Below, piece after piece: positions 23,082-41,419 of a stretch of 64,000 nucleotides of DNA. Origin of the DNA: Opitutus terrae PB90-1 (GTDB lineage: Bacteria; Verrucomicrobiota; Verrucomicrobiia; Opitutales; Opitutaceae). Where the stretch lies: NCBI RefSeq assembly GCF_000019965.1, contig NC_010571.1:3667001-3731000 (forward strand), in the 5' to 3' direction. Each line of letters opens with the position of its first letter. Within the stretch, counting starts at the first letter, position 1. The position numbers and the translations under genes were made by a program. The notes below the pieces were generated by a model. That model had not been told where the DNA came from. It did no database searches and worked only from the letters and a program-made list of their open reading frames with translations.

Positions 23082-23294
23082 GTCAACTAATACCTGGATT
23101 CCGAATTTGGGCCACAGAGGGCACCGAGGTCGGGCCAGAGCCAAGCCGGAGGCTCCGAGGTACCTGGGTGGCTGATCGCGGTCGAGAGTCTCACCGTCGA
23201 GGGGCCCTGATCGAGACTACATCTGTGCCCTCTGTGTCAGAGCTCTGTGGCCTCTGTGGCCAATCTGAATTTCGGTAGTCAGGTAATAGGTGAC
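23082..23294. repeat. imperfect inverted-repeat element between two convergent DegT genes
   Basis: The left arm (23082-23129) begins GTCAACTAATACCTG and contains GGCCACAGAGGGCACCGAGG. The right arm (23225-23294), read from the other strand, begins GTCACCTATTACCTG and contains TTGGCCACAGAGG. The arms match over roughly 45 bases with scattered differences, around a spacer of about 95 bases. The CCACAGAGG phrase recurs inside each arm. No gene is supported in 23027-23350. It looks like a dispersed MITE/REP-type element and may also end both converging transcripts. Confidence 0.6.
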
Positions 23295-23350
23295 GTGTTG
23301 CGGGTGGGGCGGGAGGCGCGAGGACGCGAGAAGCGAACGGAGGGAGCCAA

Positions 23351-25391: not shown

Positions 25392-27206
25392 CTAGCGGGG
25401 AGTGGGCGGGCGGCCGGAGCGGGCGAGTTGGCGCAGCCCGAAGCCGATGCCGATGAGCAAGAGGCCGGCGATCGAATTGATCCGGCCCGGTGCCTGGGCG
25501 GTGGAAGGCAGGAAGGTGCAGGCCAGCAACACGACGCCCAGCACGAGGCTGAGGTTGCCGATGACGCCATAGACCGCGAGGGCATTGCCGACTGGCGCCG
25601 CGGCCTCCCCGGCCACCGGGGTGCGCAGATCACGGTCGAGCTGGCGTGCTTCGGCACTGGCGGGATCGTCATACCGATAAAACCACGCCGAAACCACAAA
25701 CACGACGGTCGACGCGATCACCGCGCTGAAGATGTTGCGTTCGTAGACGTGCGCCGGCCAGAGATCGAAAGCGAGCAGCGTGAAGGTCGTGCTGAACGAA
25801 GCGATGCACGAGGCCATGCCGGACCACCACGGCGTGCGACGATAGACCATGCCCAGCAGCACCGGCATCATGAAGCCCGGGCCGACGATCGAGTAGTATT
25901 TGAGGCCGAAGTCGAAGGCGCCGCCGCTCTTTGCGATGGCGAAGCTCGTCGCCACGCCACCAACACCGACGGCCAGCATCGTCGCGCGCGCCATCCAGAG
26001 CTCGTGCCGGTCGGAGGTTGGTCCGAACCCGAGCGCCCGGCGCACCGGGACGTAAACATCACGCGTGACAGCCGCGGCCAGCCAGTTGAAGGCGTCGTTG
26101 GCCTGGCCGAGCGTGGCGGAGAGAATGGCGGCGACGACGAAGCCCACCATGCCGTGCGGCAGCAGGAACATCGCGAGGCTGACGAACGACGCCTCCTCGG
26201 GCGCCTTGAGATTTGGCCAGAGCGCGGCGATGTCGGGGAAGATGAGCCGCGACCCCATCACGGGCAGCAGCCAGAGCAACGGTCCGAACAGCGAGAGCAC
26301 CGCGCCGAGCAGGGCCATCTTCTTCGCGTCGCGTTCACTGGGCACGCTATTGTAGCGCTGGGCGAAATGCCACGCGACGTTGTAGCCGAGGAAAGCGCTA
26401 ATGGAATACGCCAATAGGAAAAGCGGCTGCGCCGGCTGGCCGCTGGGCACCAGATACTCACGCGGCAGTTCGTGAATCAGTCGGTTGAAGCCCGCCCCGA
26501 TCCCGGAACCTTCGCCGAGATAGGCGAACGTCACGGGGAAAACGATGACGGACATCACCAGGATGATGAGTCCCTGCACGGCATCCGAAATCACCGCCGC
26601 CCACAGCCCGCCGGCGACGCTGTAGACGATCATGACCAGGCCGACGACGAGCATCGAGGCCTGCAGGCCGGACAGTTCCCAACCCAAGAGATGGAACACC
26701 TCGTGTTCGAACCCGAGCGCCGAGGACACAAAGATGCACAGGATGTAGAGCCCCTGGCCGATGCCGATAACCTGGGGCAGAATGGCGGTGACGGTATAAA
26801 AATACGTCGTCGAGGACGAATAGCGGCGGGTGAGAAATTGCAGCGGCGCATTGATGCGGGCGCGCCGCCACATCGGGGCGAAGTAGAAGTAGCCGCCGAG
26901 ATAAGCCCACGCAGCGCTGGTGAAAATCAGCGCTGTGCCGAGCCCGTTCTTGTAGGTATACCCGGCAGCGGCGACGAACATGAACGCGGAGAAGCCGGAC
27001 ACCCAGCTGGACACGCCCGCGACGAACCAAGGCACTTGGCCGCTGGCCTTGAAGAAATCGTCGGCGCCCCGGTTTTTCCGCGCGGCGTAGAAACCAATCC
27101 AGACGACAATCGCGAAATACAGCGCGATCAGCACATAGTCGGAGACGTTGACCGTGTTGAAATCGCGCGGGTTCATCGCGCCAAGAGGCTGGAGCACGAG
27201 GGACAT
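25392..27206 (-). CDS. SSS family sodium:solute symporter
   Basis: 604 residues with about 14 predicted membrane helices. Family features: DDFFKASGQVPWFVAGVSSWVSGFSAFMFVAAAGYTYKNG (sodium-site helix), AAILSATLGQANDAFNW (about 357-373) and an elongated C-terminus. Start ATG 27206 is used; the Met 10 codons later (MNPRDFNTVN) is also plausible. It imports a sugar, organic acid or similar solute with sodium across the inner membrane. It lies 6 bp after the heparinase-like gene, so it likely carries the products of that lyase or of the wider system. Confidence 0.9.
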   Translation of the reverse strand: MSLVLQPLGAMNPRDFNTVNVSDYVLIALYFAIVVWIGFYAARKNRGADDFFKASGQVPWFVAGVSSWVSGFSAFMFVAAAGYTYKNGLGTALIFTSAAWAYLGGYFYFAPMWRRARINAPLQFLTRRYSSSTTYFYTVTAILPQVIGIGQGLYILCIFVSSALGFEHEVFHLLGWELSGLQASMLVVGLVMIVYSVAGGLWAAVISDAVQGLIILVMSVIVFPVTFAYLGEGSGIGAGFNRLIHELPREYLVPSGQPAQPLFLLAYSISAFLGYNVAWHFAQRYNSVPSERDAKKMALLGAVLSLFGPLLWLLPVMGSRLIFPDIAALWPNLKAPEEASFVSLAMFLLPHGMVGFVVAAILSATLGQANDAFNWLAAAVTRDVYVPVRRALGFGPTSDRHELWMARATMLAVGVGGVATSFAIAKSGGAFDFGLKYYSIVGPGFMMPVLLGMVYRRTPWWSGMASCIASFSTTFTLLAFDLWPAHVYERNIFSAVIASTVVFVVSAWFYRYDDPASAEARQLDRDLRTPVAGEAAAPVGNALAVYGVIGNLSLVLGVVLLACTFLPSTAQAPGRINSIAGLLLIGIGFGLRQLARSGRPPTPR

Positions 27207-27212
27207 CGCGGA

Positions 27213-29297
27213 CTACACGATCACGCGCGGGATTCCCTGCGGTGGGATCTCGAACGCGACGTTGACCTGCTGTTTCCCCTGTTGGCCGGTCACCCGCCAC
27301 GCGTCCGCCGCGCGTTCGATTTTCAAGACGGGGTGCACCCCGCCGGTGGGCGCGGCGGTGGCCGCCGTAAGGATCAGGTGGTCCGTGGCGGCCGGGGAGG
27401 AGGCTTCGACGAACGGTTGAGGCGTCTCTTCGGGTGGCAGCGCGAGCCGATCGGTTCGCAACGCGAGCGGCTGCAGCCCGGTCAGCTGCGCTTCGAGTTG
27501 TGCGAGCGGACGCCGGATCTGGAAGCTGTCGTCGGACGTGACGGCGCTGCCGTGGCCGTCGTCGTTGAACACCTGATAGCGGAGCTGCACCGGCCGGGCG
27601 CGCCGCAGCGAGACGCGATCGAGCAGCAGCAGGATGTCGGGTTTGAGGAAGACCAGCGTGCGCGTGACGAGGACGACCTCGGGCAGCACGAGCGCATAGG
27701 CTTCGGTCGCATCGCTCGTGGCGGTCATCCAGTCTGGGCCCGTGCGGTAGTCCACGACCGAAGCGGTGGCCCAGGAGGAGTTGGTGCCCTCGTGGCCGTC
27801 GTGATACTGGTGTCCGTGCCCATCGATCAGGAGCGCGGTATGCGCTTCGGTCTGCCGGAGCAACCAGCGCGGGACCTTGGGCGAATAGCCGGCCTTGAAC
27901 GGATCGCTGAACAACCGCTCGCCGTGTGCCTTGAAGATGACGCTGTTGCGATCGGCGTGCTCGTGATTGGCGGGCCCGCCGCTACGGAGCGCCACGACCG
28001 AGTCGGCGGGCGCCCAACCGGTGCGCGAAACGATCCAATCGTTGCTGAGCCGTACGTCGAGCAACTCGGCGCCGGGGGGCTGTGTGGGGGCCTCGGGCCG
28101 ATACCAGACGGCCGCTTGGAACTGCTTGAGCGCGCCGACCTGTTGGGCGACGTAGTTGCTCAGCGGATCTTTCGCGACCTCTCCGACCCAAGGGGCGACG
28201 GATACGTCCATGCCGACGCCGGCGTCGGAGAAGTTTACCACGTCGAGGGCAGGATCGTAGTTGCCCTTGGGCGTGGCGTTGTAGCCGGTCTTGAGTTTCG
28301 GATCCGCGACGGTGCTCCCGCCGCATGGCATCGCAAGCGAAAGTGCGTAGCGGATCGTGCCGGGGTAGTTGATGAGCCGGCGCTCGTCGACACCAAGCCT
28401 TCGATACAGCGCTTCGGCGAGCATCGCGAGGTGCGTGGTGGTGTAGCCCCAGTAACCGACGCCCTCGTCGTAGGCGCCGTCGAGGCCGTACATGGTGGCG
28501 AAAGCCTGCGCACTCTGGCGGGAGAGCTGCAGCCACTTCTTCGCGTCGGGATGCCGGCCATAGAACCAGAGCGCGGCGATCCCGAGGCCGCAGGTGGGGA
28601 TGACCTTCAGGTTGGTCGGATTGAGAATCAGCGGCCAGCGGCTGAGATCGAAACGGAACTGGAAGTCATCCTCGGGATCGAAGCCCCAGCCGCGCACGCG
28701 GTCGGGATATTTCAGTCCGTACAACGTGCGATAGCATGCGGGCGCGCCCTCGGTGAGGATCTTGTCCTCGACGCGGCGGCGCAGTTCGGCGGGCACGGCG
28801 CTGCCCAACCAGTCGAGCGCGTAGCACGTGGCGATGGTGGCTTCGGGTGCGCGCTGGAGGCCGATCGTGTCCCGGCCCGCTTCGAGGAAGTAGTCCCAGC
28901 GCTTGTAGTCGCACAGGCGCGTGAGACCGAGGAGGGCCAGCTCGAGGTGTTGGGCGTCGCCCCAGACGACGTGGGCGAACGAGGAATTCTGCACGATCTT
29001 CCAGGCGCGGATAAAATCGACGACATGGTTGTTGAGCCGGAGCTCCTCGCGGAGAAAGCGGGTCTCCGTGGCGATGTCGACGTTGAGCAGTGTGGCGCGT
29101 ATCTCCGCCAGCCGCGGCAGCTCGAGGTTCGCCCGGATCCGCGGCAATTCGCTTTGGTCAAAAAGCAGTCCGCGACGCGGATCGGCGATGGCGGTGGACG
29201 GAACAGGTGAAGTCGCGGCGGGAGCGAGCCGCGCGAATGGGAGGGTGGCGGCGAGGGTGGCGGAGGTCTTGAGGAAGGTGCGTCGACTGGTGTTCAT
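27213..29297 (-). CDS. heparinase II/III-like polysaccharide lyase with Tat signal
   Basis: 694 residues from ATG 29297, which overlaps the ROK gene stop by ATGA; the frame is open far upstream but only inside the ROK gene. A twin-arginine signal (NTSRRTFLKTSATLAATLPFARLAPAA) directs export. An (alpha/alpha)-barrel domain (about 60-400; GLDGAYDEGVGYWGYTTTHL) precedes a beta-sandwich with the heparinase II/III core GGPANHEHADRNSVIFKAHGERLFSDP (His, Asp, Asn ligands). It probably cleaves a uronate-containing polysaccharide by beta-elimination in the periplasm, giving unsaturated products suited to the GH88-like enzyme. Which polysaccharide is unknown. Confidence 0.88.
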   Translation of the reverse strand: MNTSRRTFLKTSATLAATLPFARLAPAATSPVPSTAIADPRRGLLFDQSELPRIRANLELPRLAEIRATLLNVDIATETRFLREELRLNNHVVDFIRAWKIVQNSSFAHVVWGDAQHLELALLGLTRLCDYKRWDYFLEAGRDTIGLQRAPEATIATCYALDWLGSAVPAELRRRVEDKILTEGAPACYRTLYGLKYPDRVRGWGFDPEDDFQFRFDLSRWPLILNPTNLKVIPTCGLGIAALWFYGRHPDAKKWLQLSRQSAQAFATMYGLDGAYDEGVGYWGYTTTHLAMLAEALYRRLGVDERRLINYPGTIRYALSLAMPCGGSTVADPKLKTGYNATPKGNYDPALDVVNFSDAGVGMDVSVAPWVGEVAKDPLSNYVAQQVGALKQFQAAVWYRPEAPTQPPGAELLDVRLSNDWIVSRTGWAPADSVVALRSGGPANHEHADRNSVIFKAHGERLFSDPFKAGYSPKVPRWLLRQTEAHTALLIDGHGHQYHDGHEGTNSSWATASVVDYRTGPDWMTATSDATEAYALVLPEVVLVTRTLVFLKPDILLLLDRVSLRRARPVQLRYQVFNDDGHGSAVTSDDSFQIRRPLAQLEAQLTGLQPLALRTDRLALPPEETPQPFVEASSPAATDHLILTAATAAPTGGVHPVLKIERAADAWRVTGQQGKQQVNVAFEIPPQGIPRVIV

Positions 29298-30211
29298 GGG
29301 GTGGAAACGGGGCGGAGGTGACAACGGGCGATGGCGAGGGCGGCGTGGCTGCCGATCTGCTCGCCCAACGCGGCGGGGACGACGGAGCAAACGGCGAGGC
29401 TCGGGGCGAGGGCTTCGCGACGGAGGGATTCCTGCATGCCGCCTGCGATGAACTGTTCGCAGCGCGCGAAAATACTGCCGATGACGATGCGCTCGGGATT
29501 GAGTACATCGACGAGGATCGCGAGCGCTTCGCCGAGTCGGATGCCGACTTCGTGCCACAGCCGGAGTGCCACGGGATCGCCGAGCGTCGCGGCCGTCGCG
29601 GCCTCGCGGGCGGTGAGTTGATCCGGCAGGGCCTCGGGCCAGAAGCGGTGCGCGAGTTGCGCGATGCCGCCGCCGGAGCAGAAGCCCTCGAATGAGCCGG
29701 GCTTGCCGTAGCCGACCGGCCCGGTCGGGACGAGGCGCACGTGGCCCACTTCGCCGGCGTTGCCGTTCGTGCCTTCGTAGAGCCGTCCGTCGAGGATGAG
29801 GCCCGCGCCCATGCCGGTGCCCATCGTGAGGAAGATCATGTTGCGCGTACCGCGGCCGGCGCCGAACTGCCACTCGGCGAGCGCGCAGGCATTGGCGTCG
29901 TTCATGAGGCGGGCATCGCCGCCGTAGCGGCGGGTGAGTTGGTCGCAGATTGCGATGCGATCCCATCCGGGGAGATTCGGCGGGGACAGGATCAGACCGC
30001 GCTCGGCGTCCAGCGGACCACCGCAGGAAATGCCGAACACGACGTCGTCGCCGGGCTGCAGCCGGTCGATCTCGGCGAAAAGCCGTGCGAGCGTCGGGGC
30101 CGGTTTGTCCGAGGCGAAGCGCGCCACTTCGCGCACGCCGTCGTCGCCATCGGGAATGCTCACGGCACATTTGGTGCCGCCGAGATCGATGCCAATCAGA
30201 GATGAAGTCAT
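29294..30211 (-). CDS. ROK family sugar kinase lacking the zinc cysteines
   Basis: 305 residues from ATG 30211. Family motifs: N-terminal IGIDLGGTKCAV (phosphate-1), DANACALAEWQFG with the catalytic Asp, MGTGMGAGLI (phosphate-2), and GEVGHVRLVPTG. The region that usually reads CxCGxxGCxE is YGKPGSFEGFCSGGG here, so the three zinc cysteines are missing; a similar zinc-less form exists in other ROK subfamilies. It would phosphorylate a hexose or amino sugar after import. It lies 23 bp after the GxGYxYP protein and overlaps the heparinase-like gene by ATGA. Confidence 0.9.
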   Translation of the reverse strand: MTSSLIGIDLGGTKCAVSIPDGDDGVREVARFASDKPAPTLARLFAEIDRLQPGDDVVFGISCGGPLDAERGLILSPPNLPGWDRIAICDQLTRRYGGDARLMNDANACALAEWQFGAGRGTRNMIFLTMGTGMGAGLILDGRLYEGTNGNAGEVGHVRLVPTGPVGYGKPGSFEGFCSGGGIAQLAHRFWPEALPDQLTAREAATAATLGDPVALRLWHEVGIRLGEALAILVDVLNPERIVIGSIFARCEQFIAGGMQESLRREALAPSLAVCSVVPAALGEQIGSHAALAIARCHLRPVSTP

Positions 30212-30234: not shown

Positions 30235-31863
30235 TCACCGGTAGCCGGAAAAATGCTTAGGCTCGGCCGGATCCTGGTAGCGCGTGGTGTAGGTCTTCCT
30301 GCTCGCGGCGAGCTTCAGGAAGACATCGAGCGGGACGATCTCCACCGGACCGTCGAGCTGTTGGGTGATCTCGACGAGACTGTTCACGTCGTTGGACTCG
30401 CGGACGTGGACGAGGAGGAAGTAGGGGCGGACGCGGTTGAGCGCGATGAGCTCGTTGAGATCGGCGGCTACCTCCTCGCGCGGCCGGCGCGGATTGATGT
30501 AGTAGTCGTATGAAATCAGCGGGCGCGAATCGCGCAGGTCGCGGGTGCGCGCCGGACCATAGCCGTTGATGAAGCCGATCACGTTCGGAAACGCCGCGTA
30601 GTATCGGTCGACGGTTTCCTTGGTGAGATCGGCATTGCCAACATTTCCGTCGGCGGCGGAGTTGTCCATGATCTCCATCACGCGCTCGTCGAGGACCTCC
30701 ATCATCTCGTTGGCCTCGCGCATCAGAAGCGGGAACTTATCGGCCGGAATGTGATTTGGGTACATGTAGCCCGGGCCGGAGAGTCCGCCGATGAAGTAGT
30801 CGTTGGGCGTGGCGCTCTCGTGGAAATACTCGAGTGCGGCCGGCGTGAATTTCGTCCAGTTCATCGTGACCTGCCACGAGAACGGCAGCTTGCCGCGGCC
30901 GGGCTTGGTCCAGACGCCGATGCCGATGCTGTCGGACTGGACGAACGCGAGATAGACCTTGGGCCCGGCGGTGAGCTGGGCGTCGCGCGCGACGTGATGG
31001 TTATTGGTGAACTTGAAGCCCGGCGTGAAGCTGAAGTGGCAGTTGAAACTGAGATTGGGCAGATTGTGCAGGCCCTCCATCTTCAGGCCGTAGGTGGAGA
31101 GCAAGGTCGTGTGCTGCTCCTCGGTGTCCTTGCCATAGGCGTGCCAGCCGAAGACGATCGAAAGCGGCGTGAGCTCGGAGTAGAGCCGCTGCGCCAGGGC
31201 CAGTTCCTCCGCGTGAATCGGGTTGGCGGAGAGATCGTGGAAAAACATTTTGCGGCGAATGCCCCAATCCGCCATCGCCGGCATGCGGACCGCGCCGCGG
31301 TGGCCGCCCATCAGCATGATCGCATCGTGCGTGCAGCGCGACCAGTAGCGGTTGACGGCATCGGTGTAGATCTGGGCGTCGGTCTGTCCGGCGTAGCGGC
31401 CGCGGAGATCGTCGATCTGCGACAGACGATACGGCGCGAGCAGCGGCAACTGATCAGCCGTGACCACCAGCGCATCCTCGAGCCCGGCGATGGTGAAGGC
31501 GACATTCAGCGAGGCGCCGACAGCGGGATCCCAGATCACATAGCCTTTCGCGTGCCGCGCGAAGCGCGCGAGCGCGTCGGCGGCGGTTTTGATCTCGGTG
31601 AACGCGACGCCGTGCTTGCGCTGATAGAACTGGAACAGCGGCTCGGTGATTTCCCACTGGAAATCGGCGGGGTGCACGATGTAGAGCTGCGGCTCGTCGC
31701 GATTCGCCAGGCCCTGCAACGAGACGAGCAGCGCCTTTTCCGGCAGTCCGCCGGCGACGCGCCAGTCTTGATCCCAGCGCATGAAGAAAGCCGCGCGGCC
31801 GGATGCGGCGCCAGCGGTGACGGTGCCGAGCATCAACGAGAGAAACAGAAGAATTGGGCGCAT
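30235..31863 (-). CDS. GxGYxYP domain protein, copy A (putative glycoside hydrolase)
   Basis: 542 residues from ATG 31863 with a signal peptide (MRPILLFLSLMLGTVTAGAA). The name motif occurs as GLSGPGYMYP in the middle, with long conserved stretches around DLRDSRPLISYDYYINP and EIVPLDVFLKL. The protein is a clear paralog of the gene at 35509-37161: shared phrases include SLQGLANR, FTIAGLED, TPGFKFTNNHH and the TKPGRG block. It is likely periplasmic or surface-exposed. The family is thought to be a glycoside hydrolase from its genomic contexts, but no activity is known to me. It starts 4 bp after the stop of a small secreted protein. Confidence 0.88.
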   Translation of the reverse strand: MRPILLFLSLMLGTVTAGAASGRAAFFMRWDQDWRVAGGLPEKALLVSLQGLANRDEPQLYIVHPADFQWEITEPLFQFYQRKHGVAFTEIKTAADALARFARHAKGYVIWDPAVGASLNVAFTIAGLEDALVVTADQLPLLAPYRLSQIDDLRGRYAGQTDAQIYTDAVNRYWSRCTHDAIMLMGGHRGAVRMPAMADWGIRRKMFFHDLSANPIHAEELALAQRLYSELTPLSIVFGWHAYGKDTEEQHTTLLSTYGLKMEGLHNLPNLSFNCHFSFTPGFKFTNNHHVARDAQLTAGPKVYLAFVQSDSIGIGVWTKPGRGKLPFSWQVTMNWTKFTPAALEYFHESATPNDYFIGGLSGPGYMYPNHIPADKFPLLMREANEMMEVLDERVMEIMDNSAADGNVGNADLTKETVDRYYAAFPNVIGFINGYGPARTRDLRDSRPLISYDYYINPRRPREEVAADLNELIALNRVRPYFLLVHVRESNDVNSLVEITQQLDGPVEIVPLDVFLKLAASRKTYTTRYQDPAEPKHFSGYR

Positions 31864-31867
31864 GGTG

Positions 31868-32392
31868 TTATTTCTCGGCGGGGACTTTTGTGAAGCGGTA
31901 GACCAGCGGCCGCGACCGCGTGCTATGGAGCTCAATCAGCAGCAGGGCATTGTCGCCTTCGACGAGCCGGTATTCGGAGTAGATCCGCATGACGAAGTTG
32001 CCCTGCGAGCCCTCGATCAGTGGCTGCGCCTCGACGCGCAACGTCCGGTGATCGTCGAGCCAGGCGGCGGAGACTGGTGTGGGATGATCCTTTACCGGAT
32101 AGAGCGCCATGTGGCGCTGCTCGACGCGGAAGAAGTCGGCGATCGAGGTAGGCCTGGCGGTGTCGACGACGTTGATCGCAGAGACTTTCGTCGCGATCCA
32201 CTGCATGTCGTGGCGCAGGCTGACCTGCGTACCGGTGACAGAGATCACGAGATCCCACTGCTGCCAGCCATCGAGCGCGGAGCTGCGGGCGGGATCGAGT
32301 CGCCAGCGACCCTCGAACGGCGAGCTGGCATTCGCGGCAGTGGCGGCGCCGAGCAGCAGCGCCGCAAAAAGAAGAGGTCGGAGAAAACGCAT
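31868..32392 (-). CDS. small secreted protein paired with GxGYxYP, copy A
   Basis: 174 residues with a signal peptide (MRFLRPLLFAALLLGAATAANA). The body, FEGRWRLDPARSSALDGWQQWDLVISVTGTQVSLRHD, predicts an eight-to-ten-strand beta-barrel similar to lipocalin-like or META-type folds. It is a paralog of the small gene at 37158-37709: W-R(Y)-DxARS, ISVTG, and the ends RSRPLVY versus RNRPIVY match. In both cases the small gene directly precedes a GxGYxYP gene, so the pair is likely a functional unit. Function unknown. Confidence 0.8.
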   Translation of the reverse strand: MRFLRPLLFAALLLGAATAANASSPFEGRWRLDPARSSALDGWQQWDLVISVTGTQVSLRHDMQWIATKVSAINVVDTARPTSIADFFRVEQRHMALYPVKDHPTPVSAAWLDDHRTLRVEAQPLIEGSQGNFVMRIYSEYRLVEGDNALLLIELHSTRSRPLVYRFTKVPAEK

Positions 32393-32407
32393 GGGAGGTG
32401 AGGGTGT

Positions 32408-35356
32408 CTAGTTCGAATCGCGGAAGCGCAGCTTCTCCTCGTCGCGTTCGAGATATGGGACGCCGCGATCCATCCATTCGGGGCGCGGGGCGCCTTTGAG
32501 GAAATGGTCGAAGAACTGGCTCATGCGCCGCGCGAAGTCCTTCTGGTCGGCGCGTCGGCGGAGTCCGTGAAACTCGTTGTTGTAGTTGAACAGGTAGGCC
32601 TCCTTGTCGTGCCGGCGCAGCGCAAGGAAGAATTCGATCCCCTGATACCAGGGCACGGCGTCGTCCTGGTCATTGTGCAGCAGGAGCAGCGGCGTGGTGA
32701 CACGATGCGCGAAGAAGACGGGGGAGTTTTCGAGGTAGAGCAGCGGAGCGTCCTGGAGCGAGCGGCCGATCCGACTTTGCGCCTGTTCGTATTGATATTG
32801 CCGCGGCCGGCCCGAACCCCAGCGGATGCCGGAGTAGGCGCTGGTCATGTTGCCGACGACTGCGCCGGCTTCGGCCGCGCGGAAGCGATTGGTCTGTGTG
32901 ACCATGTATGCAATCTGGTAACCGCCCCAGGAGTGGCCTTGGATCCCAATGGCGTTCTCATCGACGAAGCCGCGGCGGACAAGTCCATCGATCGCGGGGA
33001 GGACGCATTTCAGCGCGCTCTGACCAGGATAGCCGACGGTGTAAGCTATGTCGGGCATCAGGATCAGATACCCGTTGCTGGTGTAGAACGGCGGGTTGAC
33101 CACCGTGCCGGGCAGTGGCGGTGTGAACGTGTGCACGACCTGCGAGAGCCGCTCGTAGAGGTAAACAATGAGTGGGTATTTTTTGTTCGGGTCGAAGTTG
33201 GCCGGCTTGAACAGCGCGGCGGGAAGCTCAACGCCGTCGGCGTTGCGATAGGTGAGCAGCTCGGTGCTGCCCCAGAGGAACGGCGCGAGTTGCGCGCCGC
33301 CGTCGGTGACCTTGGCGGGCGCGGTGAATGAGGTGTTGGTCGCGAGCAGGTCCGGATAGAGATCGAACCGCGAGCCGCTGAGGATGACGCGATCGGCCTC
33401 GAGCGCGCGGCCGAGATAGCGGACGTTCTGGTCGCGCCACAGCAACTGTTCAGGGGCCACGTTGGCGGCGAACGAGGTTCGGAAAAATCCGGAGCTGCGG
33501 GTGACCTCGCTCTCGCCCCGGAGGATCAGCGGGCGCGAGGCATCGATGCCGCGTTTGTCGTCACCGGGCTCCGAAGCCTCGGTGTTCTGCACGCGCAGCT
33601 GAATCCGGTTCGCGCGACCGAAGCCGCGAGTCAGGTTGCGCGCCGGCCGGCCGTCGGGAAACACCTGCCAGACGTCGTAGCGATCGTAGATGAGCAGCGA
33701 TTCGCCGTCGCGGGTCCAACCGGCGGTCCCACAGGAACCGGCGGGCTCCGGGACGTCGACGAGTTCGTCATACAGCGCAAATGGAATATTCGCCGACAGG
33801 GGCCGGATCGTGCCAGACTGTGCGTCGATGACGTGCCACTGTTTTTCGTGGAAGAAGGCGAGCCAGCGACCGGTGTGCGACCAGCGCTCGCCGGATTTCT
33901 CGCCGAGTTCGCGGTAAACGAGCTGGCGCTGGCCTGTGGCCGCGTCGACGAGATACAGGTCGTGATATGCCCGGTCGTAGGTTTCGCGGCGGCGGTAGGC
34001 GCGGTCGTCGCGGCCGAACCCGCGGGTGGCGTCGTCGTTCAAGACGACGTTGGCGAGGGCGGGATCGGCGAGTTGGACGTAGCGGTGGCTCGCGAGGTCG
34101 AAGACGCCGAGATAGGTGCGCTTGCGCTCCTGATCCGCGCGCACTTTCTGCATCGGCTGGATGTAGTCGTCGCGCCAGTGCCAGAGATCGAGCGAGACCT
34201 TGTCCTGGTCGAGCAGCTCCGCGAGCCGCGCGTCAGGCTCTTTGGGAAAAGGCGCGGCGGGCACGTGGATCTTTGTGCCGTCGAAGGAAAACGCTGCGGC
34301 CGCATCGCCGCTGACCGCGTAGCCTTCGGGCAATCCCGCCGTGCCGACCGGCACGATCTCCGTCGCCGCGGCGGTGCCGCGCTTCCAGTGGTAGAGTGCG
34401 AAACGCGGAGCCTTTGCTTCGGGCTCGGCGCGGTCCGAGGCGAACACGGCCTGGGTCTGCTCGCGATCCCAGGTGAACTTCACGTACCGACCGGGGCCAG
34501 AGACGAGGGCGATCGGAGTAGCGGAATCGCCGGGCGTGACGGCGTAAACCCCGTTCTCCGTCTCGGTGCGCGAAGCGACGGTGAACACGAGCATGCGGCC
34601 ATCACGGGCGAACGAGTAGTCGAGCACGTTGGGGAATACGCGCTCCGCCTTCTCAGTCGGGGCATACAGTTGCCGCAGCACGAGGTCGCTCCCGTATTTC
34701 TGATCCTTCCGTTTCTTTTGCTTCTCCGGATCTGCCGGTGATTTTTTCTCGCTGCCGGTTTCCGCTGCTGCGGCGGCGGTGGTGGGCTCCGGCTTCGGCG
34801 CTTCATCCTTCGTCTCGGGTGGCGGCTCCTTCAGGTAAGCGACCCAGCCGCCACCTTTCGCTGGCACCTGAAAGCTTTTCACGGATGCGATCCGGGTGAC
34901 GGTGCCGTTCGAGAGGTCCACGATTACGAGACCGTCCTTCGGCATCTCCTCCGGCTTCTTTTTGTCGCGTTTCGCCTGCAGGGTCTCGGCCTGCGCCGGG
35001 AAGGCGGTGGCGATGAGAAAACGTGAGTCGCTGGTGATCGCGATCGTGACTTCGCGCCGCGGAGCCGGCCGTTCGGGATTTTCCTCAGAGGCGGTGAGCG
35101 GCGGCGGCGGCAAAGCCCCGACGGGCACGCGGAATTCGGTGCTCCTGATGAGCGAGCGGGCGATCACGTCACCGTCGCCTTCCAGCGGCATGAACGAGTA
35201 GGCGAGCCATTGACCGTCGCGCGCGATGACGGGTGCGCCAATGGTCCGCCAGCTGTCGTAGTCGTCGTGGTTGAGGGGACGCCGGCCATCGGCGGCCGCA
35301 ATGGCGACGGCGCTGAGACAGACCAGGAGCAAGGAACGGAGGAATGGGCGAACCAT
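32408..35356 (-). CDS. S9 family prolyl oligopeptidase-type peptidase, secreted
   Basis: 982 residues from ATG 35356 with a signal peptide (MVRPFLRSLLLVCLSAVAIAAADG). A long N-terminal beta-propeller domain includes a low-complexity acidic/lysine stretch near 210-240 (EPTTAAAAAETGSEKKSPAD). The C-terminal alpha/beta hydrolase domain has Ser809 in GHSWGG, Asp near 898 in HNDQDDAVP and His930 in NEFHGL, so the catalytic triad looks intact. Such enzymes cleave peptide bonds; in a glycan locus it may act on glycopeptides or the protein part of a substrate. It lies between the two GxGYxYP pairs. Confidence 0.9.
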   Translation of the reverse strand: MVRPFLRSLLLVCLSAVAIAAADGRRPLNHDDYDSWRTIGAPVIARDGQWLAYSFMPLEGDGDVIARSLIRSTEFRVPVGALPPPPLTASEENPERPAPRREVTIAITSDSRFLIATAFPAQAETLQAKRDKKKPEEMPKDGLVIVDLSNGTVTRIASVKSFQVPAKGGGWVAYLKEPPPETKDEAPKPEPTTAAAAAETGSEKKSPADPEKQKKRKDQKYGSDLVLRQLYAPTEKAERVFPNVLDYSFARDGRMLVFTVASRTETENGVYAVTPGDSATPIALVSGPGRYVKFTWDREQTQAVFASDRAEPEAKAPRFALYHWKRGTAAATEIVPVGTAGLPEGYAVSGDAAAAFSFDGTKIHVPAAPFPKEPDARLAELLDQDKVSLDLWHWRDDYIQPMQKVRADQERKRTYLGVFDLASHRYVQLADPALANVVLNDDATRGFGRDDRAYRRRETYDRAYHDLYLVDAATGQRQLVYRELGEKSGERWSHTGRWLAFFHEKQWHVIDAQSGTIRPLSANIPFALYDELVDVPEPAGSCGTAGWTRDGESLLIYDRYDVWQVFPDGRPARNLTRGFGRANRIQLRVQNTEASEPGDDKRGIDASRPLILRGESEVTRSSGFFRTSFAANVAPEQLLWRDQNVRYLGRALEADRVILSGSRFDLYPDLLATNTSFTAPAKVTDGGAQLAPFLWGSTELLTYRNADGVELPAALFKPANFDPNKKYPLIVYLYERLSQVVHTFTPPLPGTVVNPPFYTSNGYLILMPDIAYTVGYPGQSALKCVLPAIDGLVRRGFVDENAIGIQGHSWGGYQIAYMVTQTNRFRAAEAGAVVGNMTSAYSGIRWGSGRPRQYQYEQAQSRIGRSLQDAPLLYLENSPVFFAHRVTTPLLLLHNDQDDAVPWYQGIEFFLALRRHDKEAYLFNYNNEFHGLRRRADQKDFARRMSQFFDHFLKGAPRPEWMDRGVPYLERDEEKLRFRDSN

Positions 35357-35440
35357 GAGCGAATTTGGGGGAGAATAGCGGAGAGGGAAGGCCAGGCGGT
35401 CGCCTCTCCGACTCAGCTGACTGACTTGGGAAGCTCGGCG

Positions 35441-35502
35441 CGCGCGCGTATCGCAACACCACCCTGAACAGACACACCACAACACCGGACGATACGCGCG
35501 CG
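35441..35502 (-). other. strong stem-loop between the GxGYxYP and S9 genes
   Basis: CGCGCGCGTATCG (35441-35453) and CGATACGCGCGCG (35490-35502) are perfect 13-bp complements with a 36-base loop. On the transcript it lies 6 bases after the GxGYxYP stop and about 85 bases before the S9 start. There is no T-run, so it may slow or protect the transcript rather than terminate it. Confidence 0.6.
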
Positions 35503-35508
35503 GCCTCG

Positions 35509-37161
35509 CTAAGGATTTCGATAAATGGGATCGGTGGGTTGCTGATAGTGGGTCTCGTACGTTTTCTTGTTCGCGGCGTATTTGAGGAAGACATCGAGCG
35601 GCACGACCTCCACCGGTTCGGTCAGGCTGCCGATGATCTTCGACACTTTCTCTATCGTGTTCGCCTCACGCACGTGCATGAGGAGGAAATACGGCCGCTT
35701 TGGGTTGAGGCGCGTGAGTTCTTCGATGTCCGCGGTGGCCTCCTCGATTGAGCGATCGACCGCGAGGTAGTAGTCGTAGCTGAGAAACGGCCGGCCATCG
35801 CGTAGGTCGAACGTACGCGCGGTGCCGTAGCCGTTGATGAATCCGAGCACGTTCGGGAACTGCTCGTAGTAGCGATCGACGACCTCCTTCGGCAGATCGG
35901 TGTTGCCGACGTGGCGATTGCCTTCCGAGTAGTCCATGATCTCCAGCACGCGCAGATCGAGCCGCTCCATGAGCCCGCGGCCGACCTTCATCAGCGCCGG
36001 GAATTTGTCGGCGGGAATCGCCTTGGGGTACATGTAGCCCGGGCCGCTGAGTCCGCCGATGAAGTAGTCGTTGGGAGACTTGTCCTCGTAGAAGAACTGG
36101 AGGACGGGCGGATTTAGCCAGACCCAGTTCATGAGCACCTGCCAGGTGTACGGGATTTGACCGCGGCCGGGTTTGGTCCAGGTGCCGATGCCCATCGAGT
36201 CGGTGGAGACAGCGCACACGTAGACCTTGTCCGCGGCGACGAGCTTCTCATCGAGGCGGATGTGGTGGTTGTTGGTGAACTTGAAATCGGGCGTGAGGGG
36301 GATCTGCGAGGTGAACGAAACATTCGGCAGGTTATGCAGCCCCTCCATGATCAAGCCGTAGTTGCCGACCAACGAAGTGTGCTGGCCCTCGGTGTCCTTC
36401 GCGTAGGAATGCCAGCCGAGCACAACGCTCGCCGGCTGCTGTTGGCTGAGGATTTTACGCAGAAGGGCGATCTCCTCGACGTGTTCGGGATTGGCGGAAA
36501 GATCGGAGAAGAACGCGCGCTGCTGGATGCCGAAGTCGGCAATGCCCGGCTGCATCTGCGGGCCGGACTCACCGCCCATCACGACGTAGTAATAACGCGA
36601 GCAACGGTCGAAATAGTGATCGTAAGCCCATTGGTAAATGGCGTGGTCGGGCTGGCCGGTGAACCGGCCGCGGAGGTCCACCACGGGGCGCAAGCCGTGC
36701 TTGGCCGCGAGCGGGAGCTGATCCTCGGTGACGACGACGAGATCTTCGACACCGGCGATGGTGAAGGCCACGATGAGCGAAGAACGGACCTGTTTGTCCC
36801 AGACGACGCAGCCTTTGGCGAACTGGCCGAACTGGGCGAGCGCGGCGTCGGCGTCGTTGAGTGCGAGCCGCTCGAACTGCACGCCGTGACGCTGTTGGAG
36901 AAAGCGGATGAGCGGGTGAACGATTTCCCACTGCCAGCTTTGGGGATACTCGAGGTAGAGCCGCGCGTCGCCGCGGTTGGCGAGTCCCTGGAGCGAGATC
37001 AGCAAGGCGTGCACCGGCAGGTCGCCGTCGAGCCGCCAGTTCTCGGAGAGCGGAATGAGCGTGGCGGAGGCAGGCGCACGCGGGAGCTGCTTCGGTTCGA
37101 GCTGGGCACCTGCCGGAAGTGCAAGCCCGAGAAAAAAGAGAGAGAGCAGGAGGCGGCTCAT
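35509..37161 (-). CDS. GxGYxYP domain protein, copy B (putative glycoside hydrolase)
   Basis: 550 residues from ATG 37161, which overlaps the small secreted gene stop by ATGA; a longer frame upstream lies inside that gene. It has a signal peptide (MSRLLLSLFFLGLALPAGAQ) and the motif GLSGPGYMYP. The central region TPDFKFTNNHHIRLDE, WTKPGRGQIPYTW and FLSYDYYLAVDRS align closely with copy A (30235-31863), giving clear paralogy; the lengths differ by eight residues. It is exported to the periplasm or surface. Its enzymatic role is unproven; the pairing with a secreted small protein and TonB receptor suggests glycan processing. Confidence 0.88.
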   Translation of the reverse strand: MSRLLLSLFFLGLALPAGAQLEPKQLPRAPASATLIPLSENWRLDGDLPVHALLISLQGLANRGDARLYLEYPQSWQWEIVHPLIRFLQQRHGVQFERLALNDADAALAQFGQFAKGCVVWDKQVRSSLIVAFTIAGVEDLVVVTEDQLPLAAKHGLRPVVDLRGRFTGQPDHAIYQWAYDHYFDRCSRYYYVVMGGESGPQMQPGIADFGIQQRAFFSDLSANPEHVEEIALLRKILSQQQPASVVLGWHSYAKDTEGQHTSLVGNYGLIMEGLHNLPNVSFTSQIPLTPDFKFTNNHHIRLDEKLVAADKVYVCAVSTDSMGIGTWTKPGRGQIPYTWQVLMNWVWLNPPVLQFFYEDKSPNDYFIGGLSGPGYMYPKAIPADKFPALMKVGRGLMERLDLRVLEIMDYSEGNRHVGNTDLPKEVVDRYYEQFPNVLGFINGYGTARTFDLRDGRPFLSYDYYLAVDRSIEEATADIEELTRLNPKRPYFLLMHVREANTIEKVSKIIGSLTEPVEVVPLDVFLKYAANKKTYETHYQQPTDPIYRNP

Positions 37162-37709
37162 GGTTGAGCGGCAGGGGAGACGCGGTTGAAGACGTAGACG
37201 ATGGGCCGGTTGCGGGTGCTGCGCAGTTCGGTGACGACCAGTTGGGTGCCGCTGGCGGACACCTTGTAGTCGGCGAGGACGTTGACCTCGCGCGGCCCCT
37301 GCTGCGTGGCGAGAACCTGATCGGTGCTCACGCGGAGAATGCGGCCCTCGTCGAGCCATTGGGCGCGGATGCGCTTGGGATGTTCCGCGCTGGCGTAGGC
37401 GCCGAGGTGGCGATTGTCGGGCCACCACGGGGCGGCGACGATGCTGACCGGCTGGGAAAGATCGATGTCGGTGCGGTCTTCGAAGTCGCGCCGGGCCCAG
37501 CCCAGACGGCGTTGGAGGGAAATCTTGTCGCCCGCAATCGTGACGGTGAGGTCGAACGATTGCCAGGGGCTCAGCTCGGTGCTCCGGGCGGCGTCGTAGC
37601 GCCAGTGGCCGGCGAGCGATGACGGCGCGGCCCCCTGCAATGGGGTAAGAAACCCGAGCGCGAACACGCCCGTAAGCAGGGCGGGAGCGGTACGAAGCGA
37701 GACGAGCAT
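37158..37709 (-). CDS. small secreted protein paired with GxGYxYP, copy B
   Basis: 183 residues from ATG 37709, with a signal peptide (MLVSLRTAPALLTGVFALGFL...LQGA). The mature part WRYDAARSTELSPWQSFDLTVTIAG is an all-beta pattern matching copy A (31868-32392). The chosen start is the first Met followed by a hydrophobic stretch; 18 upstream codons are open. It overlaps copy B of the GxGYxYP gene. It is the first gene after the TonB receptor. Function unknown; a binding partner or lipocalin-like carrier is a guess. Confidence 0.75.
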   Translation of the reverse strand: MLVSLRTAPALLTGVFALGFLTPLQGAAPSSLAGHWRYDAARSTELSPWQSFDLTVTIAGDKISLQRRLGWARRDFEDRTDIDLSQPVSIVAAPWWPDNRHLGAYASAEHPKRIRAQWLDEGRILRVSTDQVLATQQGPREVNVLADYKVSASGTQLVVTELRSTRNRPIVYVFNRVSPAAQP

Positions 37710-37901: not shown

Positions 37902-40900
37902 CTAGAACTCGAGGGTCGCCGAGAGAACAAACAGGCGGCCTTCGAGGATGCGGTAGAACCGGCCGCCATCCGGATTGGCGTAGAACGGAACCAGCTCATC
38001 GTGGTCGGTGAGGTCCTTGACGTTCACCTGAACCACGAAGTTCCGCTTCTGGGGCAGCGCGTAGTCCATCCGGATAAAGACGTCGGCGAACGTCTGCGAA
38101 GGCGCGTAGAACGCCTGGGACCGGTCGAAGGACATGTTGCCCAGCGCGTTCTTGGCCACGCCGAAGCCGATACCCATCCGGTCCTCCCAGCGGACGCCGC
38201 CGCCGACGGTGAGATTGCCAAAGTACTTCGGGATGATGCTGCTGTGGCGGCCGAAATTATAGCTGGTATTGAGATTCCAACGCCACTGCCGCTCTTCCTT
38301 GGCGGGATTGCCGTCCTCGGTCACGGCTTGCAGGACCGGGTCGACGATCGTGGTCTGCGCCACCTGCGCGAGGGTCTGCCCCGTGATTTCGTTGACGACG
38401 TACTTCTTGGCGAAATCGCTGTTCACCCATTTGGGCAGAACGAATTCGTTGATGTAGCGCTGCATGACCGGATACGTGTTCGACGTAACCGTCTTCTGCT
38501 TCGCCACGTTCATCAGAATCGTCCAGTGCGGCGTTGGATTGTAGGCGATCTCGAACTCGAGGCCTTCGCTCGTGAAGTCCTGCGTGCCGTTGTCGTTGGA
38601 GTTGCGGTTGGTCGTCGCCTGGGCGTTGGCCCAATCCGGTTGGAACCCGTTCATGTCGATCACGCCCTGGGGTGGCAGGTAGGCCTGGACATCGCTGGCC
38701 TTGAAGCCCTGCGCCACGTTGGCGGGGTTGTCGAGTTCGCGGGCAAGACTGAGCAGAATGCCCTCCGAGTTGCTCACGCCGCCCTTGTCGAACGAGTTGT
38801 TGAGCACGCCGGTTTCATACCAGTTGAAGCGACCCTGCAGCTTGCCATCGAGTGCGGAGACCATGAAGCCCATTTCCTCGGTGGCTCCGGTGAGGGGAGC
38901 AATCTGCTCATTGTAGATATTCACGCGGCCACCGGAGGGGCGGAAGTTGTCCGCCTTGCTCTTGTAGGCCGAGAAGTCCCAGCCGGCGGGAAGATACTTT
39001 TGCAGGAAGTCCGGCGTGTGCACCACGATGCTCCACGACTTGGTTTCCTCCTCGGCGTCGACTTTGAGGGGACGCGGCACGCCGGCGACATAGACCGGGT
39101 CGAAGATATTCTCGACGCCGGGGACGCCGGCGTAGTTTTGCGGCGCGCCGATGGCGCCGGACGACTGCTTGTCCTTGCGCCAGGTACCGGTAAGGATCAC
39201 GGCCTTGTCCCACAGGTAGTGCTGCGCCACGACAACTTGCGAGTCGATCTCCGTGATCGATTTGCTCGACGAGAACGAGGAAGGGAAGCCGCCGTTATCG
39301 CGCAGCCCGTAAGCCGGCGAGGTGACGGTCTTGAAGGACTTGCTGACGCTGTCCCAGCCGACGAAGGAGCCGCCCTGCGCGCGGTCGCGATTCGGGCCGT
39401 ACGTGACTCCGCCGATGCCCGCGCCGGCGAGATCGTTGATCGAGTTGGCCGCGAGGAAGTTCTTGCTGTTGGCCACGGGGAGCGTGTAAACGGAGGCGAT
39501 GCGTGCGTCCGCTTGGTTGATACCGGCGCCGTTGATGACGCCGCCGCTGAACGCGCTGGCCAGCGAGCGGAGATCCAGCTGATCACGGCTGTAATGCCCC
39601 TCGCCGCCGGCGACGCTTTCCTCGATCAGGCCGGTGAGGGTCAACTTGCCGAGGAGCTTGGAGAGCCAGCCCTTCTTCAACATGTCAGTGGCGCGCAGTT
39701 CGACGAATCCGGTGGCGCGTTTCGATTCGCGGTCAGAGGCACTGAGATTACCCGTCCAGAGACCGCCCATGACGGGTTGGCCGAAGGAGGGGTTGGCCAC
39801 CAGCGCGCCCGTGCCGGTGGCGTCGGCGGTGTTGATCAGGTAGCGGTTCGGGTCGATGTAGATCGTGCGCTGCTCGCTGCCTTGGAGTGAATTGTACCCC
39901 GAGGTGTTCATCGCCTGGTTATAATAGGAGAGTTCCATGCCGAGGCGGTTCTCGAACCAAGTCCCATCGAGTGAAGCGGTGTAGACGACCCAGTCGGAAA
40001 ACTCCTGGGACGAACCACCGGAGAACAGGTTCTTGCGGTAGTCGTAGATGCTGCGATCGGTGATCTGCGTGCCGACGTAGCCGTTGCTGTAGAAAGTGGC
40101 GGTGCCGGCGGGGACCAGGGTACCGTCGGACCGGTAGCCCGAGCGACGGATGATCTGGGTCTCGGTGAAAGGCTGGAGCATCATCCACTCGCCGAGTCCG
40201 CCAGCGGAGGGAATACCACGGTTGCCCCGGACGTAGGGCGTGCCCATGAAGGTCGGATTGGGATTGGAAGGATCGCCGTAGAATGCGGCCATGCCCGCGC
40301 CGGTGCCGCTGCCAGCGAGGGTCAGGAACGTGCTGTTGGCGACGCCGGGGACGAAGGCGCCAGTGCCGCGGAAGAATGCGCCGGCTTCGGCCGGCGAGTT
40401 GAAGACCGGCTTGCCCATGTTGATCCAGGGCGTGATGCCGTCATTCGGCGGGATATAGTCCGGACGCGAGGCAGCGCGGTCCGCCGACTCAAAGCTGCCG
40501 CGCGCGGTGAGGTTGAACGGCAGTTTGACGGCGGCGGCAACAAAGTAGCGCTTGTCCTTGGAGAAGGCCTGCCGCTGCTCATAGCGCGTATCCTCGTTCA
40601 ACGCGGCCACGTGGAGGGCGACGTACTTGTTAAGAACGTGATTATACCGAAGGGAGTAGCGCTGGGTGCCGTAGCTGTCGGTTTCGGCCCGGATGCGACC
40701 CCGATTGGAGAGGAAGTCGGCCTTGATCGTCGCGCTGTTCACAATACCACCGGGGCTGCCGAGGCCGAAGAGCGCTGAATTGGCTCCGCGTTGGACCTCG
40801 ACACGATCGGTGTTGTAGGTGTCGAACGGGATATCAGTGATGAAGTAGTCCCGGGTGAGGTCGGCTGCCGCCAAGCCGCGGATACGGGTGATGCCGCCGC

Positions 40901-41306
40901 CATGACTGTCGCGCTGCTGTTCCGGAATCGGGTTGCCGGAGCTCTGGCTCGCGGTGAAGTTGCCGCCCAAGCCGCCCACTTCGGTGTTGGGCGTGAAAAT
41001 CAGCACGTCCTCAAGATTGGCCGAGCCGGTGTCCTGGAGGAGTTCCTGGTTGACGATGGAGATCGAGGATCCGACATCACGGAGTTCGGTGCGAAGACGA
41101 GTACCTGCCAGAGTGGACGTCGCCTGATAGCCAATGTCGGATTCACCCGTGACGGTGAAGGGCGAGAGGATGATCGTATCGTCGTTTTCTTCAGCAGACA
41201 GAGCAGGGCTCTGAGGAAGAGCGGCCGGAGCGCTCTGGGCAAACAGGCCCCCCGCAACGATCAAGAAGGATGATGCGGCGAGCCACGGTTTGAGGTTTGT
41301 TTTCAT
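37902..41306 (-). CDS. TonB-dependent outer-membrane receptor
   Basis: 1134 residues from ATG 41306; ten more codons are open upstream. It has a signal peptide (MKTNLKPWLAASSFLIVAGGLFAQ), then an acidic stretch and a TonB-box-like DDTIILSPFTVTG (about 52-64). The plug domain follows (GTRLRTELRDVGSSISIVNQELLQ, DRVEVQRGANSALFG) and then a beta-barrel ending in aromatic VLSATLEF. No SusD-like gene is beside it, as usual for Verrucomicrobia. It would import oligosaccharides or other large ligands using TonB energy. It leads the enzyme operon and follows a LacI gene on the same strand. Confidence 0.95.
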   Translation of the reverse strand: MKTNLKPWLAASSFLIVAGGLFAQSAPAALPQSPALSAEENDDTIILSPFTVTGESDIGYQATSTLAGTRLRTELRDVGSSISIVNQELLQDTGSANLEDVLIFTPNTEVGGLGGNFTASQSSGNPIPEQQRDSHGGGITRIRGLAAADLTRDYFITDIPFDTYNTDRVEVQRGANSALFGLGSPGGIVNSATIKADFLSNRGRIRAETDSYGTQRYSLRYNHVLNKYVALHVAALNEDTRYEQRQAFSKDKRYFVAAAVKLPFNLTARGSFESADRAASRPDYIPPNDGITPWINMGKPVFNSPAEAGAFFRGTGAFVPGVANSTFLTLAGSGTGAGMAAFYGDPSNPNPTFMGTPYVRGNRGIPSAGGLGEWMMLQPFTETQIIRRSGYRSDGTLVPAGTATFYSNGYVGTQITDRSIYDYRKNLFSGGSSQEFSDWVVYTASLDGTWFENRLGMELSYYNQAMNTSGYNSLQGSEQRTIYIDPNRYLINTADATGTGALVANPSFGQPVMGGLWTGNLSASDRESKRATGFVELRATDMLKKGWLSKLLGKLTLTGLIEESVAGGEGHYSRDQLDLRSLASAFSGGVINGAGINQADARIASVYTLPVANSKNFLAANSINDLAGAGIGGVTYGPNRDRAQGGSFVGWDSVSKSFKTVTSPAYGLRDNGGFPSSFSSSKSITEIDSQVVVAQHYLWDKAVILTGTWRKDKQSSGAIGAPQNYAGVPGVENIFDPVYVAGVPRPLKVDAEEETKSWSIVVHTPDFLQKYLPAGWDFSAYKSKADNFRPSGGRVNIYNEQIAPLTGATEEMGFMVSALDGKLQGRFNWYETGVLNNSFDKGGVSNSEGILLSLARELDNPANVAQGFKASDVQAYLPPQGVIDMNGFQPDWANAQATTNRNSNDNGTQDFTSEGLEFEIAYNPTPHWTILMNVAKQKTVTSNTYPVMQRYINEFVLPKWVNSDFAKKYVVNEITGQTLAQVAQTTIVDPVLQAVTEDGNPAKEERQWRWNLNTSYNFGRHSSIIPKYFGNLTVGGGVRWEDRMGIGFGVAKNALGNMSFDRSQAFYAPSQTFADVFIRMDYALPQKRNFVVQVNVKDLTDHDELVPFYANPDGGRFYRILEGRLFVLSATLEF

Positions 41307-41419
41307 TTCTTCGTTTGGTCCTTGGGGATTAGGCAACTAGCAAAACAGAACGGTAACACCGCGAACGCGAAAACCGGCGACGGGAGGTCGCCGGGCTACT
41401 CGCGTGTTGGAGGGCCTGG

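Follow-up and report, generated by a model that had tools for sequence, protein, structure and literature searches.

Two gene pairs of Opitutus terrae

The subject of this study was a stretch of 64,000 nucleotides from the genome of Opitutus terrae PB90-1 (contig NC_010571.1, positions 3,667,001 to 3,731,000), which we refer to as the window, and in particular two gene pairs, A and B, located there on the minus strand. Each pair consisted of a gene for a large protein of the GxGYxYP family and an upstream gene for a small protein, and a gene for an S9 peptidase lay between the two pairs. In the direction of transcription, these genes were arranged as follows (homologs were counted in the 80 related loci described below):

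37158 to 37709, minus strand: small B, predicted secreted lipocalin-like beta-barrel of 183 amino acids (AlphaFold2 model), upstream partner of GxGYxYP B
35509 to 37161, minus strand: GxGYxYP B, 550 amino acids, putative periplasmic glycoside hydrolase (four Pfam domains)
32408 to 35353, minus strand: S9 prolyl-oligopeptidase family peptidase between the pairs (PF00326, E 2.4e-22; homologs in 9 of 80 loci); its start codon was uncertain and the open reading frame (ORF) extended to 35485
31868 to 32392, minus strand: small A, predicted secreted lipocalin-like protein of 174 amino acids, paralog of small B (sequence comparison)
30235 to 31863, minus strand: GxGYxYP A, 542 amino acids, paralog of GxGYxYP B (four Pfam domains)

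The initial annotation had placed the four paired genes at these coordinates, described the pairs as paralogs in the same order and named an S9 peptidase between them, and our analysis agreed on all three points. Namely, the two GxGYxYP proteins were identical at 285 of 514 positions (55%) and the two small proteins at 55 of 167 (33%, E 3e-32). The small gene overlapped the GxGYxYP gene by 4 nucleotides in pair B and was separated from it by a gap of 4 nucleotides in pair A. Moreover, the N-termini of all four proteins read as signal peptides when their sequences were inspected directly.

The annotation had also called the pairs duplicated, and as a local event this was not borne out. When 89 pairs from related loci were sorted into clades, 38 belonged to clade A and 31 to clade B, and both clades were old, with members in many genomes. 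GxGYxYP A was nearer to proteins of other genomes (top identity 81% among 41 tree rows) than to GxGYxYP B (55%). Two other loci, L027 and L056, contained one clade A pair and one clade B pair each. A recent local or tandem duplication of pairs A and B was rejected because the pairs fell into different clades, each spread over many genomes.

Constancy, fusion and joint divergence of the partners

The related loci were the best 80 of 119 relatives on genome contigs, ranked by similarity to a query that was headed by a fused protein. This set leans to paired relatives, whereas the survey of 288 evenly drawn Verrucomicrobiota genomes described below does not. The 80 loci and the window together contained 95 GxGYxYP ORFs, and 77 of them were immediately preceded by a small ORF in the same orientation. 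The remaining ones were 14 natural fusions of both parts, 3 ORFs cut by a contig end and one ORF (L055) with its small gene 543 nucleotides upstream; the adjacency limit was 600 nucleotides and the L055 ORF was outside it. Conversely, the small protein matched 92 of 5046 ORFs, 91 of which adjoined or lay within a GxGYxYP ORF, the other being that of L055. Intergenic gaps in the pairs were mostly short and 19 pairs overlapped by 4 nucleotides; these values depend on the start codons, which a simple scripted rule had assigned in the loci.

O. terrae itself had a third GxGYxYP gene at about 3.80 Mb (L001:1459-3573, minus strand). Here, the small domain (hereafter also the barrel) was followed by the GxGYxYP part in one reading frame. 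The product (P0006) was thus a natural fusion of 704 amino acids with the chosen start codon, and its N-terminal domain aligned with small A and small B. A profile of these three small sequences found three strong places in the source genome, which were the partners of its three GxGYxYP genes, and a fourth place at E 0.07.

In a tree of 41 GxGYxYP domains, all 16 fused rows were in one clade with a support of 97/100. The records of this clade were named Verrucomicrobiota, Bacteroidota and Spirochaetota. Among the related loci, nearly all split forms came from records named Opitutae or Verrucomicrobia, and L059 (Planctomycetota) was the exception noticed. A single fusion or a single split event could account for both the fused and the split states in this tree, which was made of 41 chosen rows, had long outgroup branches and did not resolve the split rows as one clade. 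Many of the named loci were metagenome-assembled, and the single-phylum exceptions L017 (Spirochaetes) and L059 could be binning errors.

Among the 288 Verrucomicrobiota genomes, 28 had GxGYxYP proteins with 54 matches in total. The small domain was found in 13 of the 288, all of them in the order of the window, and its copy number was equal to that of GxGYxYP genome by genome. According to the coordinates, all GxGYxYP genomes of this order (13/13) and all their GxGYxYP genes (30/30) were paired with the 30 small-domain matches, either adjacent or fused. This complete correspondence excluded pairing by chance. Outside the order, no small domain was matched in the 288 genomes at E 0.001, with the first 12 candidates scored in most of the listed genomes, so that single absences are less sure here than in a direct check. 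The 15 Verrucomicrobiota genomes outside the order that did have GxGYxYP (24 matches) likewise gave no barrel at E 0.001. When 20 of these 24 unpaired loci were read directly with a relaxed profile, no barrel was found either (best E 1.3).

A similar distribution was seen in other groups. The order of genome G292 (record named Bacteroidales) was represented by 247 genomes, 10 of which had GxGYxYP. Three of the 10 contained a strong barrel, two of them being loci already in the 80-locus set, and the other seven had no barrel at E 0.01. Among 149 genomes from the phylum of G297 (record named Planctomycetota), three had GxGYxYP and one had the barrel. In the phylum of G295 (record named Spirochaetes), one of 149 genomes had GxGYxYP and one had the barrel. 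In both phyla the barrel genomes were the ones found earlier in the locus scan. Genome G669, from the phylum of G297, had 11 GxGYxYP matches and no barrel match and thus represented a large unpaired expansion. Two small-domain matches (G018:C1:1166991-1167512 and G295:C291:4322-4792) contained one in-frame TGA each, which could reflect decay or a match running beyond the start of the ORF.

The order of G292 also contained weak barrel-like matches (E 5e-6 to 9e-3) in four genomes without a GxGYxYP match, including G422. The proteins of three of these four genomes (L108-L110) had weak profile similarity to the small domain (E 2e-6 to 6e-6). They resembled the small proteins in a signal-like N-terminus and a GTW start but differed from them in being unpaired, with no GxGYxYP match in those three genomes. 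Our reading is that they may be generic bacterial secreted lipocalin-like proteins.

Thus, a general rule that a GxGYxYP protein needs the small partner was rejected, because all 15 Verrucomicrobiota genomes with GxGYxYP outside the order of the window were without the barrel. Pairing is a trait of a clade, or subfamily, and no rule for all GxGYxYP proteins. It had been suggested as a test that GxGYxYP genes elsewhere might usually lack the small partner. This was true outside the clade (15/15 genomes in Verrucomicrobiota and 7/10 in the order of G292) and false inside the order of the window (30/30 genes paired).

The partners also diverged together. The distance matrices of the small and large proteins from the 89 pairs, with short or cut rows dropped, correlated with r 0.927, and the maximum in 1000 permutations was 0.13. 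The clusters of small and GxGYxYP proteins mapped nearly one to one, except that GxGYxYP clusters 4 and 6 corresponded to a single small cluster and that cluster 2, with two members, was split. As a control for species history, partners were swapped within the 12 loci that contained two pairs each. Over 1999 swaps, r averaged 0.37 and never exceeded 0.879, compared with 0.916 for the original partners. Therefore, a pair duplicates and diverges as a unit. Taken together, strict co-occurrence, adjacency, fusion and matched divergence made an obligate partnership of the small protein and GxGYxYP well supported. The initial idea of a two-component unit can accordingly be kept within one clade, where it is favoured by the fusions, the 30/30 pairing, the matched distances and the predicted 10-strand barrel; for GxGYxYP proteins at large it did not stand.

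The small barrel and the large protein

Small A and small B matched no Pfam family and had no believable NCBIfam match. No believable sequence relative was found in the PDB for small B or for a profile of 56 small sequences. When these 56 rows were compared with Pfam, there were three single weak matches, one of them to the lipocalin family VDE (E 0.0056). The AlphaFold2 model of small B, built from the 56 rows, was a 10-strand barrel with a predicted local distance difference test score (pLDDT) of 89.0 and a predicted template modelling score (pTM) of 0.81. Among the 50 PDB rows shown for this model, the matches were to FABP, CRBP/CRABP and tardigrade SAHS proteins (Z 13.4-14.5, root-mean-square deviation (rmsd) 2.0-2.6 over 110-122 residues), and the best E in Foldseek was 7e-5. 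The high-confidence model thus indicated that the small protein would be a calycin (lipocalin/FABP-like) up-and-down antiparallel barrel.

The signature of calycins is a GxW motif in the first strand and an Arg or Lys from the last strand that packs against this Trp. In the 56 small rows, Gly34 and Trp36 of the first strand were invariant, as were Gln137-Gly138 and Arg166. At residue 176, the end of the last strand, sequence counts gave Arg in 37 and Lys in 18 of the 56 rows. The small proteins resembled FABP/CRBP, SAHS and lipocalins in the predicted 10-strand meander barrel and, by sequence, in the GxW in strand 1 and a terminal Arg/Lys (55/56). They differed in their low identity to these proteins (8-15% in the rows shown), the lack of a Pfam match, their predicted secretion and their bond to one enzyme family. 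The loops at the presumed open end of the barrel were slightly more conserved than the opposite loops (one-sided p 0.037), but they did not exceed the strands in conservation (p 0.061; 56 rows), and we make no claim from this.

The large proteins were clear members of the GxGYxYP family. Both GxGYxYP A and B had all four Pfam domains (PF16216, PF20957, PF20958 and PF14323) far above the cut-off, and a profile of 22 relatives that included them matched the structure 3SGG with E 7.5e-40. In Rigden 2014 (PMC4071793), residues Glu272, Asp331 and Asp333 of the corresponding protein, BT2193, were proposed to be catalytic. They were located in the cleft between two domains and were described there as highly conserved, though not invariant.

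We mapped residues through the profile alignment to 3SGG, taking the residue number as chain position + 21 (our own conversion). The proposed GH9-like triad was then followed in 94 ORFs; of the 95 in the set, only the fused ORF of L010, which was cut, had been dropped because of its length. The motif equivalent to Glu272 was present in 93 of these 94 paired-clade members and that equivalent to Asp331 in all 94. In place of the stretch with Asp333 and Asn334, however, all 94 had a short loop, [ST]D[SACG][MILV]G[IL]G. The canonical motif [DE]GD[NTSL] was found by a regular expression in 19 of 26 unpaired GxGYxYP ORFs. The expression missed the other 7, and the short-loop string occurred in one unpaired ORF (L102) that also had the canonical motif. 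Since the positions are called not invariant in the paper, the loss of Asp333 is no bar to membership in the family. Two features thus set the paired clade apart, namely its barrel and the altered loop where the catalytic site is proposed to lie.

Other GxGYxYP proteins may have accessory parts of a different kind. According to Rigden 2014 (PMC4071793), some of them carried carbohydrate-binding modules. In our set, four unpaired proteins (L102, L104, L107 and L113, the last from the order of G292) had about 200 extra N-terminal residues at the position of the barrel, and these look like a carbohydrate-binding jelly roll. The clade of the window is similar to the module-bearing proteins (PMC4071793) in having an accessory domain beside the same catalytic part but differs in that the accessory is a predicted calycin barrel, mostly encoded by a separate gene. 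In comparison to the BT2193/3SGG family, it shared the four domains, the GxGYxYP motif region, the overall fold (as modelled for the fused relative L004), the equivalents of Glu272 and Asp331 and, in the window, a location in a sugar-catabolism locus. It differed in the short loop that replaced the Asp333/Asn334 stretch and in the barrel partner or fusion, which was absent from the available part of the account in Rigden 2014 (PMC4071793).

A natural fusion from locus L004 was used to place the barrel on the large protein. Its AlphaFold2 model (52 rows, 702 residues) had a pLDDT of 92.1 and a pTM of 0.88. The GxGYxYP part matched 3SGG with Z 35.6 and rmsd 2.5 over 457 residues, and the barrel part again matched FABP-like folds. 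The barrel made up about 155 of the 702 residues, and by our own arithmetic the pTM would have had a ceiling of about 0.78 if the barrel had added nothing. The pTM was above this ceiling, which implies a defined placement of the barrel in the fused model. From the fusions and this pTM we infer that a separate small protein would dock on its GxGYxYP subunit as well.

Locus context and proposed function

The two pairs of the window were part of a longer row of genes on the minus strand. Upstream of pair B and downstream of pair A, it contained the following genes:

41420 to 42463, minus strand: LacI-family regulator at the head of the locus (PF00356, E 7.6e-13; homologs in 13 of 80 loci)
37902 to 41336, minus strand: TonB-dependent receptor upstream of pair B (PF07715 plug, E 2.5e-8; homologs in 14 of 80 loci)
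29294 to 30208, minus strand: ROK-family sugar kinase (PF00480, E 1.9e-49; homologs in 5 of 80 loci)
27213 to 29330, minus strand: heparinase II/III-type lyase (PF07940, E 1.4e-12; homologs in 19 of 80 loci)
25392 to 27206, minus strand: sodium:solute symporter (PF00474, E 7.6e-28; homologs in 9 of 80 loci)

The order of transcription was therefore LacI regulator, TonB receptor, small B, GxGYxYP B, S9 peptidase, small A, GxGYxYP A, ROK kinase, heparinase-type lyase and symporter. The lyase had a possible Tat signal (a match below the cut-off), and its nearest solved structure was the oligoalginate lyase 3a0o (E 8.4e-10, residues 452-582). Promoter- and terminator-like sites were no more frequent than expected by chance. 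Downstream of the locus, a 675-amino-acid ORF (23217-25244, minus strand) matched neither Pfam nor NCBIfam, and none of the 80 related loci contained a homolog of it. It overlapped a 267-amino-acid ORF (24586-25389) with homologs in 4 loci, and its start may thus be wrong. More broadly, positions 12496-61732 of the window resembled a sugar-catabolism island with a GH78-type rhamnosidase, GFO/IDH/MocA oxidoreductases, amidohydrolases and two sodium:solute symporters. Weak GH88 and GH141-insertion matches, both below the cut-off, were found in the same region.

Among the 13 of 80 related loci that had a LacI gene, 10 contained a clade B pair (L027 also a clade A pair) and three (L037, L062 and L065) only clade A. 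The heparinase-type lyase recurred in 19 of the 80 loci, yet the neighbouring genes indicated no single sugar as the substrate. In the loci where the pair stood beside a gene for a SpoU-type rRNA methylase, SDR and FtsJ-like genes were often on its other side. The clade A pairs of L035, L043, L045, L048, L061, L070 and others had a fixed place between the SDR/FtsJ-like and the SpoU-methylase genes, with no evident sugar locus around them. From the location beside the methylase, the two genes would seem not to depend on any other constant partner.

The explanation that we favoured, with a probability of roughly 0.62, was that each pair forms an obligate two-part periplasmic enzyme in which the barrel, a dedicated accessory subunit docked on the large one, serves in substrate binding or completes the site. 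The large subunit would be a putative glycoside hydrolase of a distinct GxGYxYP subfamily, and the small calycin barrel would dock in trans as the fused relatives hold the barrel in cis. The barrel would most likely bind a part of the glycan, or complete or shape the substrate cleft, a role comparable to that of the carbohydrate-binding domains on other GxGYxYP proteins. Because the pairs of the window sit in a locus with a LacI regulator, a TonB receptor, a heparinase-type lyase and a symporter, their likely task would be the breakdown of imported, perhaps uronic-acid-rich, oligosaccharides. Both the glycan hydrolysis and the substrate-binding role of the barrel are inferred.

A number of points weighed against this proposal. 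The paired clade lacked Asp333 and Asn334, a stretch that was an insertion in 3SGG relative to the clade profile, and for this reason the hydrolase chemistry seems less certain in the paired clade than in the type protein. To our knowledge, cleavage of a glycosidic bond has been demonstrated for no GxGYxYP protein. A personal communication in Rigden 2014 (PMC4071793) stated that GxGYxYP proteins from mannan polysaccharide utilization loci had shown no activity. Additionally, 16 of the 80 related loci had the pair beside the SpoU-type methylase gene and not in a sugar locus. The Foldseek alignments of the barrel were loose (query template modelling score 0.44-0.51 and rmsd 4-8 A in the rows shown). 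Calycin barrels usually bind hydrophobic ligands, and a glycan fits this just indirectly.

Several other explanations of the pairing were considered. A fairly unlikely one was that the barrel acts in the periplasm as a dedicated chaperone or stabiliser, needed only for the folding or export of GxGYxYP and with no part in catalysis. The one-to-one genetics and tight coupling would agree with this, as would the upstream position of the small gene in all 77 adjacent pairs, by which it is made first, and the absence of Asp and Glu among the invariant positions of the barrel (56 rows). However, fusions in records named from three phyla keep the barrel permanently, which a transient chaperone does not need, and other GxGYxYP proteins (3SGG and those of the unpaired genes) manage without it. 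A variant of the enzyme proposal, which we considered improbable, is that the barrel took over a part of the active site. In this case, acquisition of a calycin barrel and loss of the loop with Asp333/Asn334 would have turned a GxGYxYP lineage into a lipocalin-assisted composite hydrolase. The lipocalin-type pocket would hold a non-sugar moiety of the substrate, whether lipid, acyl or aromatic, the sugar would be cut in the GxGYxYP cleft, and the targets would be glycolipids or acylated or phenolic glycans.

Selection on the operon alone was a quite improbable explanation. Many co-inherited proteins of sugar loci never touch each other, and small and large proteins that both read as secreted could be two independent periplasmic members of one pathway, with the barrel carrying, for example, a product or a lipid. 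Against this speak the fusions and the pTM of the fused L004 model, as well as pairs found as a lone two-gene cassette amid unrelated genes. We thought it very improbable that the barrel serves for inhibition or self-protection by restraining the enzyme in the periplasm. Secreted proteases and lysozymes have inhibitors that are small beta-barrels, and a small barrel that is predicted to be secreted, present once per enzyme and made first would suit such a role, but its fusion in 14 of 95 GxGYxYP ORFs is hard to square with a dissociable inhibitor. The clade-matched divergence fits either an inhibitor or an accessory subunit. Finally, a recent local duplication that gave the two pairs without further meaning was hardly credible. 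It would explain their homology and same gene order but not the membership of A and B in different clades with many other genomes, nor the presence of one pair of each clade in L027 and L056 as well.

The GxGYxYP family and the calycin fold were already known; the obligate pairing of the two appears to be new, as do the fusion and the loop change that goes with it. A limited literature search found no report of a barrel partner of GxGYxYP and no description of a calycin barrel that acts as a dedicated subunit of a polysaccharide-degrading enzyme. The GxGYxYP family has a crystal structure and occurs in sugar-degrading loci, yet members from mannan loci were without detected activity (PMC4071793). 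If the clade described here works only with its barrel, the missing barrel might make assays of its isolated large protein fail, and the natural fusion would be a ready-made test protein. The altered loop, located where catalysis is proposed, is a concrete point to probe. If the proposal is true, the calycin barrel would gain a role as a dedicated subunit in polysaccharide breakdown, and the pairing makes it easier to test directly what this enzyme family does.

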